Part shown: one piece after another, positions 26,957 to 32,989 of the stretch | Position numbering within the stretch: the stretch's first letter is position 1 | Layout: every line of letters starts with the position of its first letter | Assembly: GCA_030550025.1 (NCBI GenBank) | Contig: JAUQQC010000004.1 | Coordinates: 124,001-188,000, forward strand | Direction: 5' to 3' | From: Acidobacteriota bacterium | Lineage (GTDB): Bacteria; Acidobacteriota; Blastocatellia; HR10 | Length of the DNA stretch: 64,000 nt | Notes under the pieces: generated by a model | Database searches by the model: none | Seen by the model: only the letters and a program-made list of their open reading frames with translations | Told to the model about the DNA's origin: nothing | Translations under genes and position numbers: made by a program

Positions 26957-26990
26957 TGGGCCACTCACGTGCGGCGACGAGGAGGCGCGT

Positions 26991-29900
26991 ATGATGGAGG
27001 GGGTGACCTTGAGAAATGCACGAAAAGCCGGAATGCGTTGGCTTCTCGTTATTCTCGTACTCAACGCGCTCGGAATCGGCTCGTTCGCTTCTTGGGCGAA
27101 TCGCTCCGCTCCGCTTCCAATGGTAAGGAGAGCGTCGAGCTCTCCCTCTTGGTTGAAGGCGCGGGATTTCGCCGAGCATCTTGTGGCCCGCGACGAAGGC
27201 GGAGGATTCGTCCTCGTTCAGGGAGAAGATGGGGGGTATGCGTGCCGCGAAGCTACGCCGGAAGAGATGCTCTGGATAAAGCAGCGGGATCCGGACATAC
27301 CGCTACATGTGATCACCCCTCTTCGCGTGAGCCAACAGCAGACGGGCCTCCGGATCATCTTGCGTGGGACGCCGCAGCTTGAGCAGTTTCCCCAAGCAAA
27401 AGCCGCCTTTCTGCGTGCGGCGCAGATGTGGGAGCGCCTCATTCAAAATCCGATCACCGTCGTGCTCGATGTGGATTTCGGACCGACGAGATTTGGAACG
27501 CCCTATCCGCCGCGCGTCATCGGGTCTACAGATCCCCAGGAGATCGGAGGCTCCGTCTATTCGGACGTTCGGTCGCAATTGCTCGCGGGAGCTTCCTCTT
27601 CCTCGGAGAGGACCATCTACACGGCGCTACCGCAGGGACAGGTACCGACCGATCTCGGCGCGACCGATAGGGTGGAAGCTCCTTCCGCGGTCTTTCGCGC
27701 GCTCGGCTTGATCAATCCTGTCGCCGATCCTGAAGGGGAGCGCAGCCGATTCGGTCCCCCACCTTCCATCGGGTTCAACTCGAGCATCCCGTTCGACTTC
27801 AATCCTGACGATGGTATCGATCCGGACAAGATAGATTTTGATGCCACGGCCGTGCATGAGATCGGTCACGCTTTGGGGTTCACCTCTCTAGTCGGAGAGC
27901 GAGAGCTGAATGCTTCTGCTCCCATCGCGGTGAGCGTGTGGGACCTCTTTCGCTTTCGCCCAGGAGTTACGGTGACGACTTTCTCGACAGCACAGCGGAT
28001 CCTATCTTCCGGGGGGGAGCATGTTTTCTTCGCCGGGCCTCCGGCACTCCCTCTCTCGACGGGGCGACCGGACGGCTCTGGGGGAGACGAACGGCAAGCA
28101 TCTCATTGGAAGGATGATGCTCTCACGGGGCAGTACATCGGCATCATGGATCCGACTGGTCGTCCTGGGGAGCGGAACACGATCACGGAGAACGACCTGA
28201 AGGCCCTCGACTTTTTTGGATACCAAGTGAGCGCCCAGGGACAGCCGCCACCAGGTGGCGATGTCGTGGACTTGACTTCGGGCGTGCCACAACAGGGCTC
28301 CATTCCAGCACCTCAAACTCCTGGCCGCGGCGTGCTGGGCGGTACGCAATATCGAATTCGAGTCCCGGCCGGAGCGACCCAATTGCGGGTCGAATTGCGC
28401 GCTGCCGGGGATCAGGATGTGGATCTTTACGTTCGATTCGGACAAAGGGTCGAAGTTCAAGACGGGCGTGTGGTCGCTGACTACATCTCGGAATCCCCTA
28501 CAGGAAATGAGACCATCACGGTGACTCCGTCGAGCTCTCCGCCTCTGCGAGAAGGAGCGTATTTCATCGCCGTGGCGAACTTTGGGCCGGGAGCGGCGAC
28601 CTTCACCGTGACAGCGACGGTGAGTGGGCCGCCGGTGCAGCCCGATATAGATGTGCAGCCAACAGCACTTGACTTCGGCAGCGTCACGGTGGGCTCGACG
28701 GCCGATCGGACGTTGACGGTGAGGAATGTGGGGGGAGCATCACTCACCGTCACGGGCATGAGTATTGACAATTCCCGGTTCACGATCGTCTCGCCTTCGC
28801 CGCCGTTCACGGTGAACGCGGGGGGACAGCAGACGGTCACCGTGCGGTTCGCGCCGACGACAGTCGGAGTGCAAAATGGGACCTTGCGCATCCAGAGCAA
28901 TGATCCCGATGAAGCGACGATCTCGGTGAGTTTGACGGGGCAAGGCGTGGCGGCACAGCCGCCCCCTTCAGGTCGGACCCTCAGTGTCCCGAATGCTTCC
29001 GGAGAGCCCGGGCGCACGGTCACGATCGCCGTGAACCTCTCTGATGGAAGTGGGATCTCAGCGCTCTCCTTCACGTTGAGCTTCAATCCGTCTGTGCTTT
29101 CGATTCCTGGGCCGTCGGCCGTCTCGCGCGGATCGCTTGTACCAGACAACTTCTCGCTCAGCGCCAATACGGTAACGGCGGGGCAAGTGCGGATCGTCAT
29201 CTCGCCTCCGATTGCGACGCCGCTGCCGACATTCCGAAGCGGGAGTGGTTCGGTCGTCACGATCGCTTTTCAGGTGGCTTCGGGGGCGGCTGTCGGAGCG
29301 ACGAGTCCGCTCACGCTTTCGGACATCTCGGCATCGGATCCGAATGCTAGCTCCGTCCCCATTACGCCGCAGAATGGCACGTTCACTGTCGGGGTCGCGC
29401 GAACTCTGGCCGTGGCCGATGCCCAAGGGGCTGCTGGTTCGACCGTCGCCATTCCAGTCACTCTCTCGGATGGGACGGGCATCTCGGCCTTGCAATTCAC
29501 GCTCAGTTTCGATCCCGCGATCCTGACACCGGCGGCCAATCCCGTAGCGCTCGGCTCTCTTGTCCCGAGCAGCTTCACCGTAAGCGCGAGTACGGCGACG
29601 GCGGGGCGAATCATCGTCGTGATCTCGCCGCCAATTGCATCGCCATTGCCGACGTTCAATTCGGGGAGTGGGACCGTCGTCACCCTCACCTTCCAGGTCG
29701 CGAGCGGGGCGAGTCCAGGGGCGACCAGTCCACTCACGTTGTCGGCTATTTCGGCGTCCGATCGGAATGCGAATTCGGTAGGGATCACGGCACAGAATGG
29801 AACGTTCACCGTCTCAGCCGTGCGGCGCGGCGACATCAATCAGGATGGGGTGATCAACGTCCAGGACCTGATCATGCTGATTCGGCATCTGACGGGGGAG

Positions 29901-30449
29901 AGTCCGTTGACGGGAGCGGCCTTGCAAGCCGCCGACGTCAATGGCGATGGGCAGGTGAACGTGCAAGATGTCGTGCGCCTGATCCAGCATCTGACGGGTG
30001 AGCGTCCGCTCTCCATCCGGTTACCCGTTGGTGAAGAGACAGCGCGTTGGGTGGCGCTCGGCGAGCGGTTCTGGTCGGAGGGAGCGATGCTCGTGCCGAT
30101 TCTGATCAGTGAAGCGCGCGATGTGGCCGCCGCCGAGCTGGTCATCGAGTACGATGCGGCGAAGTTGCAACCGGATTTCGTGGAGCTTGTGAGGGCCGTC
30201 GGACTCCCGATGGGATTCCGATGGCACGCGCGCTTGATCGAGCCGGGACGCCTCGGGCTTGTGCTCGCGCCTCCGGTGGAATCGCCGATCCCGACCTTGC
30301 CCCGCGGCATTCGAGTTCTAGCTCAGGTGCGGTTCCTCCCGGCACCGGGCGTTGACGCTGAGGAGGCCGCCGACGCGCTCGTGCGCGTGCGCCACATCGG
30401 GCTCGCAGATCGCGAGGGGTGCGCGATCCCGGCGAGAACGATCCCATGA
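26991..30449 (+). CDS. Secreted multidomain metalloprotease with PPC, HYDIN-like, cohesin-like and dockerin domains
   Basis: A 1152-residue exported protein. A signal peptide (about 15-36, MRWLLVILVLNALGIGSFA) leads to a metalloprotease domain with the zincin motif HEIGHALGF (His289-Glu290), a downstream ASHWKDD and a Met-turn-like IMDPT, as in the NF038122-type proteases. Then come a pre-peptidase C-terminal beta domain (about 443-543), a HYDIN/ASPM-like choice-of-anchor domain (about 551-653), two cohesin-like domains (about 662-802 and 804-943), a type I dockerin (about 946-1008) with two calcium loops, DINQDGVINVQD and DVNGDGQVNVQD, and a third cohesin-like domain to the end. The ATG at 26991 follows GAGGAGGCGCGT. 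The stop overlaps the next gene's ATG. Substrate and binding partners are unknown. Confidence 0.88.
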   Translation: MMEGVTLRNARKAGMRWLLVILVLNALGIGSFASWANRSAPLPMVRRASSSPSWLKARDFAEHLVARDEGGGFVLVQGEDGGYACREATPEEMLWIKQRDPDIPLHVITPLRVSQQQTGLRIILRGTPQLEQFPQAKAAFLRAAQMWERLIQNPITVVLDVDFGPTRFGTPYPPRVIGSTDPQEIGGSVYSDVRSQLLAGASSSSERTIYTALPQGQVPTDLGATDRVEAPSAVFRALGLINPVADPEGERSRFGPPPSIGFNSSIPFDFNPDDGIDPDKIDFDATAVHEIGHALGFTSLVGERELNASAPIAVSVWDLFRFRPGVTVTTFSTAQRILSSGGEHVFFAGPPALPLSTGRPDGSGGDERQASHWKDDALTGQYIGIMDPTGRPGERNTITENDLKALDFFGYQVSAQGQPPPGGDVVDLTSGVPQQGSIPAPQTPGRGVLGGTQYRIRVPAGATQLRVELRAAGDQDVDLYVRFGQRVEVQDGRVVADYISESPTGNETITVTPSSSPPLREGAYFIAVANFGPGAATFTVTATVSGPPVQPDIDVQPTALDFGSVTVGSTADRTLTVRNVGGASLTVTGMSIDNSRFTIVSPSPPFTVNAGGQQTVTVRFAPTTVGVQNGTLRIQSNDPDEATISVSLTGQGVAAQPPPSGRTLSVPNASGEPGRTVTIAVNLSDGSGISALSFTLSFNPSVLSIPGPSAVSRGSLVPDNFSLSANTVTAGQVRIVISPPIATPLPTFRSGSGSVVTIAFQVASGAAVGATSPLTLSDISASDPNASSVPITPQNGTFTVGVARTLAVADAQGAAGSTVAIPVTLSDGTGISALQFTLSFDPAILTPAANPVALGSLVPSSFTVSASTATAGRIIVVISPPIASPLPTFNSGSGTVVTLTFQVASGASPGATSPLTLSAISASDRNANSVGITAQNGTFTVSAVRRGDINQDGVINVQDLIMLIRHLTGESPLTGAALQAADVNGDGQVNVQDVVRLIQHLTGERPLSIRLPVGEETARWVALGERFWSEGAMLVPILISEARDVAAAELVIEYDAAKLQPDFVELVRAVGLPMGFRWHARLIEPGRLGLVLAPPVESPIPTLPRGIRVLAQVRFLPAPGVDAEEAADALVRVRHIGLADREGCAIPARTIP
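28975..29818 (+). repeat. Tandem duplication encoding two cohesin-like domains
   Basis: Two units of about 420 bp (28975-29395 and 29400-29818) encode clearly similar domains. Shared landmarks are GISAL.FTLSF.P, a GSLVP turn, VISPPIA.PLPTF, FQVASGA..GATSPLTLS.ISASD and the closing QNGTFTV. DNA identity is high enough to see directly around the VISPPIA segment, so this is an internal duplication within the gene. Confidence 0.75.
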
Positions 30450-32989
30450 GAGATGAAACGGTGATGGCTCGCCTGTTCGTCTTGCGGAGGTTCCCGCGTG
30501 CGCTCGCGCGCTTTCTCCTTGTCGCCCTTGGTGGGGTTGCATTCTTTCCTTTCCCGAGCGGATCGAATCTCAGGAAGGGGCCGATTGTTCGAATGGAGAG
30601 AACGCGCGCGATTGTATCTGGGCTTCGCCAGCGAATGCCGCGCGCGCGAGCCGAGAGCGTGCGATACGATCGTCCCTCGGAAGCCCAGCGATTCTATGCG
30701 CGGAAGCGCCTGCCGCCTGGGATGACTTCCCTTCCCGTGGAGAAGTACCTGGAAGCGCTTCAGCGCATGGACGAGATGCCGCAGTATGCGACGGCGCTCG
30801 GCCTGAGCCTCCCTTCGCGGCGCGAGATGGCGCTTTGGAGGGAGTATATGGCGCTCTCGGTTCTCGGCTCGTGGGAGGCGCTAGGGCCGGGGAACATCGG
30901 CGGGCGCACGCGCGCCCTGCTCATTCATCCCACGAATCCCCGCATCATGTATGCCGCAGGGGTATCCGGTGGTGTGTGGAAGACGGCTGATGGCGGACAA
31001 ACGTGGTTCCCCCTGAACGATCTCCTTCCGAATCTGGCCGTCTCGGCGCTGGCGATGGATCCGCGGAACCCCGATGTCCTCTACGCCGGGACGGGCGAGG
31101 GATATTTCAACTATGACGCCGTGCGCGGAGCGGGCATCTTCATGACGACCGATGGCGGGCGAACGTGGGAGCATTTGGCGAGCACGAGGAACGCGAACTT
31201 CTATTATGTGAACGATCTCGTCGTCAGCGCGAACGATTCCCGGCGACTCTATGCGGCGACGCGCACAGGCGTATGGCGTTCGACCGATGGGGGGCGAACG
31301 TGGCGGCGAGTTCTCGCTGCTGGAGGGAATGACGGATGCCTCGATCTCGCCCTTCGGACGGATCGACAGACGGATTACCTCTTCGCCTCCTGCGGGAACT
31401 TCTCGCGCGCGGCCATTTATCGGAACGCGCGCGCCGAAGGCGATGGAGCGTGGAGTCGAGTCTTCAGCGAACCCGACATGGGGCGCACATCGCTAGCGAT
31501 CGCGCCCTCCAATCAAAATGTCATCTATGCCTTGGCGGCTAGCCTCGTCGAAGGGCGTTATCAGTACGGGTTGCACGCTGTGTATCGTTCGGCGCGGAGT
31601 GGCGATCCCGGAAGTTGGGAAGCGCGCGTGCGCCAGACGGATGCGAACAAGCTCCATACGGTCTTGCTCTCGAATCCAGTCTATGCGTTCTTGAGCGAAT
31701 GTGGCTTCGGCCGCAGCGAGTGGATCAATCAAGGGTGGTACGACAACGTGATCGCCGTGGACCCGCGCGATCCCGAACGCGTATGGGTGGGGGGGATTGA
31801 TCTCTTTCGCTCAGATGATGGTGGGCGGACTTGGGGACTGGCGTCGTATTGGTGGGTGGAGACGAATCATCCGCAGTATGTGCATGCTGATCATCACGTC
31901 ATCGTCTTTCATCCGCAGTATGACGGGGTGACGAACCGGACGATGTTCGTGGGGACGGATGGGGGGATCTTCCGCACCGATGACGCGCGCGCGCCAGTTG
32001 CCTTGGGGCCCACAGCCGCCTGTCAGCCAAGCGGTGGCCTTCGATGGCGATCGCTCAACAACCACTACGGCGTGACGCAATTCTATCATGGCGTGCCGCT
32101 GCCGGATGGCACGGCGTATTTCGGAGGGACGCAGGACAACGGGACGCTTTTGGGAAGCGATTTGCGAGGCGCGAATGCATGGGTGGAGATCCTTGGTGGC
32201 GACGGGGGATATGTGGCCGCGGATCCTGAGAACCCCAATGTCCTCTATGCGACGAACCCGTACGGAGATGTCGCGAAATCGAGCGACGGAGGCTTCTCCT
32301 TCCGCTCGGCGACGCGCGGGCTCGCCGACAGTGGGTTCGAGTTCATCGCGCCTTTGGTGATGGACCCCAGTAATCCACAACGGCTGTGGACCGGGGGATA
32401 TTACCTCTGGCGCACGGACGATGGTGCGGAGACATGGGTGCGCGCGAGCCGCTTGACGCCAGGCAACGGTTCAGTCACGGCGATCGCCGTCGCGCCTGCG
32501 AATTCGAACTTCGTCGTCGCGGGCATGAGCGACGGATACATCTTGCGCACGACCGAGGCGTTGCGCGCACATGCGACGACAACATGGGCCTCAGCGCGTC
32601 CGCGCGTGGGGTTTGTCTCCTCCTTAGCGTTCGATCCGACGACCCCCCGTATCGTGTATGCGACCTATTCGACCTTCGGAGGCACGCACGTGTGGAAGAG
32701 CGTGGATGGTGGAGCGACCTGGCGCGATCTCGATGGGCGAGGCGCAGGACGCTTGCCCGATATTCCCGTGCACGTCATCGTCGTGGATCCGAGTGATCCA
32801 CAGCGGCTCTATATCGGGACGGATCTTGGAGTCTTCGTCTCCACAAACGGCGGCCTCTCCTGGGCCGTCGAGAACGCCGGCTTCGCCAATGTCGTGACCG
32901 AAGCTCTCGCAATGGGGCGCGTGGGCGCGACTCCCCATCTGTTCGCATTCACACACGGGCGTGGGGCGTGGCGCGTCCCGCGTTGGTGA
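30446..32989 (+). CDS. Secreted BNR/Asp-box beta-propeller (sortilin/VPS10-like) protein
   Basis: An 847-residue protein with a signal peptide (LARFLLVALGGVAFFPF) and a long run of Asp-box repeats, among them TADGGQTW, TTDGGRTW, STDGGRTW, SDDGGRTW, SVDGGATW and STNGGLSW, each following a strand such as PRIMYAAGVSGGVWK or PDVLYAGTGEG. These blades form one or two propellers as in sortilins, sialidases and GH74-like proteins. No catalytic glycosidase residues can be assigned, so a binding role is as likely as an enzymatic one. The ATG at 30446 overlaps the metalloprotease stop (ATGA), giving tight coupling: the two are probably secreted together and may act on the same material. Confidence 0.85.
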   Translation: MRDETVMARLFVLRRFPRALARFLLVALGGVAFFPFPSGSNLRKGPIVRMERTRAIVSGLRQRMPRARAESVRYDRPSEAQRFYARKRLPPGMTSLPVEKYLEALQRMDEMPQYATALGLSLPSRREMALWREYMALSVLGSWEALGPGNIGGRTRALLIHPTNPRIMYAAGVSGGVWKTADGGQTWFPLNDLLPNLAVSALAMDPRNPDVLYAGTGEGYFNYDAVRGAGIFMTTDGGRTWEHLASTRNANFYYVNDLVVSANDSRRLYAATRTGVWRSTDGGRTWRRVLAAGGNDGCLDLALRTDRQTDYLFASCGNFSRAAIYRNARAEGDGAWSRVFSEPDMGRTSLAIAPSNQNVIYALAASLVEGRYQYGLHAVYRSARSGDPGSWEARVRQTDANKLHTVLLSNPVYAFLSECGFGRSEWINQGWYDNVIAVDPRDPERVWVGGIDLFRSDDGGRTWGLASYWWVETNHPQYVHADHHVIVFHPQYDGVTNRTMFVGTDGGIFRTDDARAPVALGPTAACQPSGGLRWRSLNNHYGVTQFYHGVPLPDGTAYFGGTQDNGTLLGSDLRGANAWVEILGGDGGYVAADPENPNVLYATNPYGDVAKSSDGGFSFRSATRGLADSGFEFIAPLVMDPSNPQRLWTGGYYLWRTDDGAETWVRASRLTPGNGSVTAIAVAPANSNFVVAGMSDGYILRTTEALRAHATTTWASARPRVGFVSSLAFDPTTPRIVYATYSTFGGTHVWKSVDGGATWRDLDGRGAGRLPDIPVHVIVVDPSDPQRLYIGTDLGVFVSTNGGLSWAVENAGFANVVTEALAMGRVGATPHLFAFTHGRGAWRVPRW

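Follow-up and report, generated by a model that had tools for sequence, protein, structure and literature searches.

A secreted zinc metalloprotease of Blastocatellia with a putative self-complementary cohesin–dockerin tail

The protease locus

The stretch of DNA analyzed here (the window, 64,000 nucleotides) belongs to a genome of the class Blastocatellia (Acidobacteriota) of 3.17 Mb in 29 contigs that is 98.7% complete. Its genes mutS2, dnaG, rpoD and a DUF6249 gene are followed by the gene of a secreted metalloprotease, a sortilin/BNR propeller gene, an FtsJ/S4 methyltransferase gene and an M28 peptidase gene. Reading of the sequence showed the ends assigned earlier to the protease ORF to be correct, from the start ATG at 26991 to the end of the stop codon at 30449, and the features of the chain are collected in Table 1 together with the other genes of the genome that bear on it. 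The chain belongs to the NF038122 family of metalloproteases, for which it scores well above the NCBIfam cut-off, and it carries the HExxH motif in the form HEIGHALGF; the wider motif HExGHxLG is common to the two orthologues described below (L049 and L050) and to L044, L048 and L112. No match to PF04151, the Pfam profile of the pre-peptidase C-terminal (PPC) domain, was found on the corresponding window segment; a homologous segment ~60% identical to it (L112:2856-3248) scores 42 bits, and through this homologue, which passes Pfam, the PPC assignment is supported and was retained as probable. A search of the PPC and protease segments against PDB sequences gave no significant match.

Table 1 Features of the protease gene and of related genes in the same genome. 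Residues are those of the protease; AF2, AlphaFold2; positions refer to the window unless a locus is named.
Feature	Position	Strand	Evidence or detail
Shine-Dalgarno-like AGGAGG, 5 nt 5' of ATG	26980..26985	+	Sequence read
Complete ORF (1152 aa); secreted metalloprotease, tail order Coh-Coh-Doc-Coh	26991..30449	+	Orthologues L049, L050
Sec-type signal peptide, ~residues 1-37	26991..27101	+	By inspection: basic n-region, WLLVILVLNALGIGSF core, ASWA
NF038122 family metalloprotease domain, residues 135-412	27393..28226	+	NCBIfam 225 bits, cut-off 80
Zincin motif HEIGHALGFTS, residues 289-299	27855..27887	+	Sequence
Probable PPC domain, residues 416-548	28236..28634	+	Homologous segment L112:2856-3248
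HYDIN-like / choice-of-anchor-D Ig domain, residues 551-647	28641..28931	+	PF22544 52.9 bits; NF012200 (choice_anch_D) 74.8 bits
Cohesin 1 (Coh1)	28977..29390	+	PF00963 57.7 bits
Cohesin 2 (Coh2)	29406..29813	+	PF00963 57 bits; AF2 model
Type I dockerin (Doc), two Ca-binding loops (DINQDGVINVQD, DVNGDGQVNVQD), residues 947-1001	29829..29993	+	PF00404 (Dockerin_1) 55.6-61.4 bits
Cohesin 3 (Coh3), diverged	30030..30446	+	PF00963 15.1 bits alone; AF2; PDB fold search
Next gene, sortilin/Vps10-type BNR propeller, starts 14 bp after protease stop	30464..32989	+	PF15902 62 bits
GspD/PilQ-type secretin, TPR N-terminus, C-terminal cohesin	L036:3961-6321 (own genome, C21)	-	
choice_anch_V protein, dockerin at end, without cohesin on chain	L037:3729-4901 (own genome, C29)	-	

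Orthologues that are full-length and keep the Coh-Coh-Doc-Coh order were found in two further species of the genus (G002 and G003). The gene neighborhood is kept in the first of these, and in the other as far as the limit of the contig; the adjacency of protease and propeller genes is found in both. A chance arrangement or assembly chimera was ruled out by these two orthologues and their conserved synteny. The protease and the sortilin/BNR propeller gene likely lie on one transcript, and the propeller is a possible functional partner of the protease.

The cohesin and dockerin modules

Against Pfam, the whole protein matches the cohesin profile PF00963 at 105 bits over three stretches. Coh1 and Coh2 each score above the gathering cut-off of the profile, whereas Coh3, taken in isolation, falls below its 24.1 bits. 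The equivalent of Coh3 in another genome (G009) passes this cut-off at 25.7 bits, and the AF2 model of Coh3 (pLDDT 93.7, pTM 0.85) finds cohesins as its best PDB folds (TMq ~0.70), including cellulosomal ones and, at rank 2, the non-cellulosomal Archaeoglobus fulgidus cohesin 2xdh. For these reasons Coh3 is a real cohesin that has drifted. Likewise, a profile built mainly from post-dockerin cohesins matches cellulosomal cohesins at 2e-14, the top PDB folds for the AF2 model of Coh2-Doc-Coh3 are cohesins (TMt 0.84), and the AF2 models and their PDB fold matches agree with the nine-stranded jelly-roll fold of cohesins. Its predicted fold, together with the corresponding domains from other genera, ruled out a non-cohesin identity of the third domain despite the sub-threshold Pfam score. 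The earlier note had read all three beta domains of the tail as cohesin-like, and each of them is a cohesin by profile and/or predicted fold; scores or folds pointing to another kind of domain were looked for and did not emerge.

The dockerin has the two Ca-loop–helix repeats with intact D/N ligands that define type I, and the AF2 helices lie at the expected places. QDxxxLIxHLTG is common to both repeats and their helices are alike; this repeat symmetry would allow a dual binding mode. Its PDB sequence matches are 8x39, 6kg9, 2ccl and 1ohz, the best being 8x39, entitled 'Serine protease', at 7e-14. Pfam and NCBIfam profiles, together with the sequence itself, also bear out the zincin motif, the HYDIN-like domain and the two Ca-binding loops that had been noticed before.

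A genome-wide profile search found two dockerins in total, one on the window protease and one on the choice_anch_V protein; the same search found a single cohesin outside the window chain, at the C-terminus of a secretin whose gene adjoins that of a GspE/PilB-like ATPase. Because of these low numbers, the window dockerin has few other partners in its own genome. Membership of a cellulosome, in which a scaffoldin would gather many plant-wall enzymes with dockerins, was ruled out since the whole genome holds only two dockerins. In the four other species of the genus there are dockerin ORFs similar in size to that of the choice_anch_V protein. Secretins with a C-terminal cohesin are widespread and occur also in genomes in which no dockerin was detected, among them two assembled in 2 contigs each (G020 and G024), which indicates that the secretin–cohesin fusion is independent of dockerins. 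One further genome (G006) has a cohesin protein and no detectable dockerin, from which it appears that cohesin-like domains can serve without a dockerin.

Distribution and carriers in Blastocatellia

Searching 162 Blastocatellia genomes with the Pfam dockerin model at an E-value of 1e-6 returned 23 dockerins, of which 17 share their ORF with a cohesin (by our own count, ten as Coh-Doc-Coh, four as Doc-Coh and three as Coh-Doc). The six without a same-chain cohesin are L099 and five copies that look like the choice_anch_V protein; of these five, L037 alone was read over its full length. With custom profiles, 39 Coh-Doc-Coh modules were read from the DNA of 25 genomes, a biased sample in that it was partly chosen by cohesin pairs ~900 bp apart. 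Within Blastocatellia the order is common, and the presence of both modules on one chain is close to a rule and not peculiar to this gene; it fits with pairing among like chains.

The N-terminal partners of Coh-Doc-Coh comprise metalloproteases, a subtilase (L047), FG-GAP/DUF11/HYDIN domains (L041), a delta-60 propeller (L106) and a beta helix (L091), and these profile assignments show it to be a portable cassette reused on unrelated secreted proteins across the class. Three subtypes were distinguished: subtype A has the order seen in the window, a tight arrangement and a canonical dockerin; subtype B has altered Ca loops and is often followed by Soli_cterm (TIGR03437); and in subtype C the module is surrounded by CarboxypepD_reg-type domains. 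In both A and B the dockerin directly adjoins the two cohesins through short linkers. The NF038122 protease itself is found with two of these subtypes, A in the window protein and L048, and B in L112. The latter (G033:C43), a distant-family member that belongs to the same protease family, has PPC repeats, its type B Coh-Doc-Coh and Soli_cterm. On another chain (L101:915-3548, minus strand), two Coh-Doc-Coh modules follow in succession with a linker domain between them.

Evolution of the modules

In a tree of 95 cohesins, which has few columns and long branches, the cohesins cluster by module subtype, such that copies from before and after the dockerin lie together both within A (support 100/100) and within B (98/98). 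Forcing all post-dockerin cohesins together was rejected (dlnL 197, p-AU 4e-6), and forcing together those of A and B alone gave p-AU 0.018. A single origin of the post-dockerin cohesin is thereby rejected, so either the sandwich was assembled repeatedly or the cohesins were homogenized within chains by concerted evolution; both alternatives point to a functional unit. The longest branch of the tree (3.84) is that of the secretin cohesin.

Within the genus, the dockerin has the lowest dN/dS of all modules (0.01-0.02, at 95-98% identity), followed by Coh1 and Coh2 (0.08-0.21) and Coh3 (0.20-0.33). Identity to the G002 orthologue is 95% for the dockerin, 76% for Coh2 and 52% for Coh3.

Discussion

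What would a secreted protease do with both halves of an interaction on its own tail? We propose, with a rough probability of 0.5, that the protein is a secreted zinc metalloprotease with a putative non-cellulosomal and self-complementary tail that serves in assembly or anchoring. The Ca-loaded dockerin would pair with cohesins of its own kind, namely Coh1 or Coh2 of the same or another copy or those of another cassette protein, with the effect that the protease, as a compact clasp or an oligomer, would stay at the cell surface or close to it and not be lost by diffusion. Counted for this proposal are the same-ORF cohesins of most class dockerins (17/23), the 39 modules from the partly preselected loci, the few partners in its own genome, the repeated or concerted formation of the sandwich, the constraint on the dockerin, the two cassette subtypes on NF038122 proteases and the high pTM of the Coh2-Doc-Coh3 model; counted against it are the G006 cohesin without a dockerin, and L037 and L099, which break the same-chain rule. 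The earlier note had suggested self-polymerization or head-to-tail assembly, and we favor the more general statement that the dockerin pairs with cohesins of the same chain type, in cis or in trans, of which polymerization is one of two forms. The fast evolution of Coh3 argues against a strict dockerin–Coh3 pair; rather than the main partner, Coh3 is more probably a secondary site or a buttress. Canonical cohesins contact dockerins through strands 8-3-6-5, and two binding orientations are possible for a dockerin with symmetric repeats (PMC5429695). The cohesins of the order keep a PPxxSPxPT motif. Mapped by sequence only, it would lie at the end of the presumed strand 6, in the vicinity of residues known to affect affinity, among them Leu83 of Clostridium thermocellum (PMC12484212).

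The same data are fitted as well as by head-to-tail polymerization if the dockerin merely closes on its own chain, or if its flanking cohesins buttress it for binding elsewhere. In the former case the dockerin would bind Coh2 (or Coh3) of its own chain to give a closed, monomeric, Ca-stabilized C-terminal module with no inter-chain assembly. The direct adjacency of the dockerin to both neighbors across the short linkers of types A and B speaks for such a clasp, and the incomplete orders Doc-Coh and Coh-Doc still keep one cohesin beside the dockerin. Moreover, the AF2 model of Coh2-Doc-Coh3 (pLDDT 93.8) has a pTM of 0.74, which exceeds the ~0.4-0.5 that we estimate roughly for three freely moving domains, and for this reason some fixed packing within the predicted module is likely. 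However, pTM is an indirect measure and the packing may be a side-to-side contact, and the very short Coh2-Doc linkers may keep the dockerin off the canonical 8-3-6-5 face of its neighbor; we consider an exclusively intramolecular clasp unlikely, though it is the strongest competitor of the proposal above. In the latter case the flanking cohesins would play the part that X modules have in X-dockerin dyads, and the dockerin would bind a cohesin carried by a different protein, such as the C-terminal one of a type II/IV pilus-type secretin. The only other cohesin of the genome is indeed on a secretin beside a GspE/PilB-like ATPase, the dockerin is the most constrained module, and the double dockerin of a C. 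thermocellum S8 protease binds preferentially to the cohesin that a cell-bound scaffoldin carries (PMC12484212). Against this, the wide occurrence of the secretin–cohesin fusion without a detected dockerin, as in G020 and G024, weakens the secretin as main receptor, and its cohesin sits on the longest branch of the tree; the odds of a buttressed dockerin are accordingly low.

It could also be that neither the cohesin-like sandwiches nor the dockerin-like EF-hand pair recognize each other and that they serve as structural spacers, a reading to which the cohesin-only protein of G006, where no dockerin was detected, and the altered Ca loops of type B dockerins lend themselves. A near-invariant dockerin with intact Ca ligands, a sandwich formed repeatedly or in concert, and the reliance of dockerins on a cohesin in their own chain in 17/23 cases would be hard to understand for inert beads, and this is the least probable of the readings considered. 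Returning to the self-complementary tail, we extend it tentatively, and with more doubt than conviction, to the whole class: Coh-Doc-Coh would be a self-complementary cassette, of several origins or concertedly uniform, that builds, at the cell surface, Ca-dependent homo- and hetero-oligomers of secreted proteases, propeller proteins and adhesin-like proteins. It would be the equivalent of a cellulosome without scaffoldin, each protein supplying its own scaffold.

The earlier note expected cohesins and dockerins to be located, as a rule, on separate proteins. This is right in part, the exception being scaffoldins, which carry both: CipA has cohesins and a type II dockerin on one chain, and this dockerin recognizes cohesins of another type. 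ANME scaffoldin-like proteins have one dockerin with up to 5 cohesins (PMC9012536). The window protein resembles these scaffoldins in having cohesins and dockerin on one chain; they are non-catalytic, whereas in Blastocatellia the cassette sits on catalytic proteins, with its dockerin between cohesins. Clostridium perfringens NagJ/GH84C (2jh2, 2ozn; A5 profile match 1.5e-8) likewise has a cohesin on a secreted non-cellulosomal enzyme, and its partner dockerin is on another enzyme. For the A. fulgidus proteins ORF2375 and ORF2376 (2xdh), strong and specific binding of a likewise non-cellulosomal cohesin–dockerin pair has been reported, but the characterized partners are on two proteins and neither a protease nor a sandwich is described (PMC9705933). 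The nearest case by protease is dDoc_0689, an S8 protease of C. thermocellum, with which we equate 8x39 by matching name and description (PMC12484212). Like the window protein it is a secreted protease with a type I dockerin, but it is a serine rather than a zinc protease, has a double dockerin with no cohesin on the chain as described, and comes from an organism that has scaffoldins and produces a cellulosome. The joint presence of the two modules on a single chain (scaffoldins, ANME) and protease–dockerin fusions (dDoc_0689) are already known.

Cohesins and dockerins outside cellulosomes have been recorded for a long time, to our knowledge with no clear function assigned. In Blastocatellia cohesin and dockerin mostly share a chain, recur in a single order and occur on diverse secreted proteins, and the fusion makes the question of function directly testable with single recombinant modules. 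If the modules self-associate, they would offer a scaffold-free route to extracellular enzyme assemblies as well as new coupling parts. Our literature search, whose coverage did not include the review by Peer et al. 2009, returned no description of a class-wide Coh-Doc-Coh on catalytic or adhesin-like proteins, and searches on secretin–cohesin fusions, on 8x39 by its code and on Coh-Doc in Acidobacteria returned no earlier description.

In other Acidobacteriota classes, none of 29 dockerin loci had a detected same-ORF cohesin within 1.5 kb, as judged with a cohesin profile that was trained on Blastocatellia and is less sensitive there. Cohesin ORFs adjoin dockerin ORFs at four loci of these classes (L151, L153, L154 and L156), which are possible two-protein versions of the cohesin–dockerin pair. 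Beyond the phylum, a Bacteroidales protein (L055:5660-8233) carries Coh-Doc and a weak second cohesin, with more dockerin and cohesin ORFs alongside.
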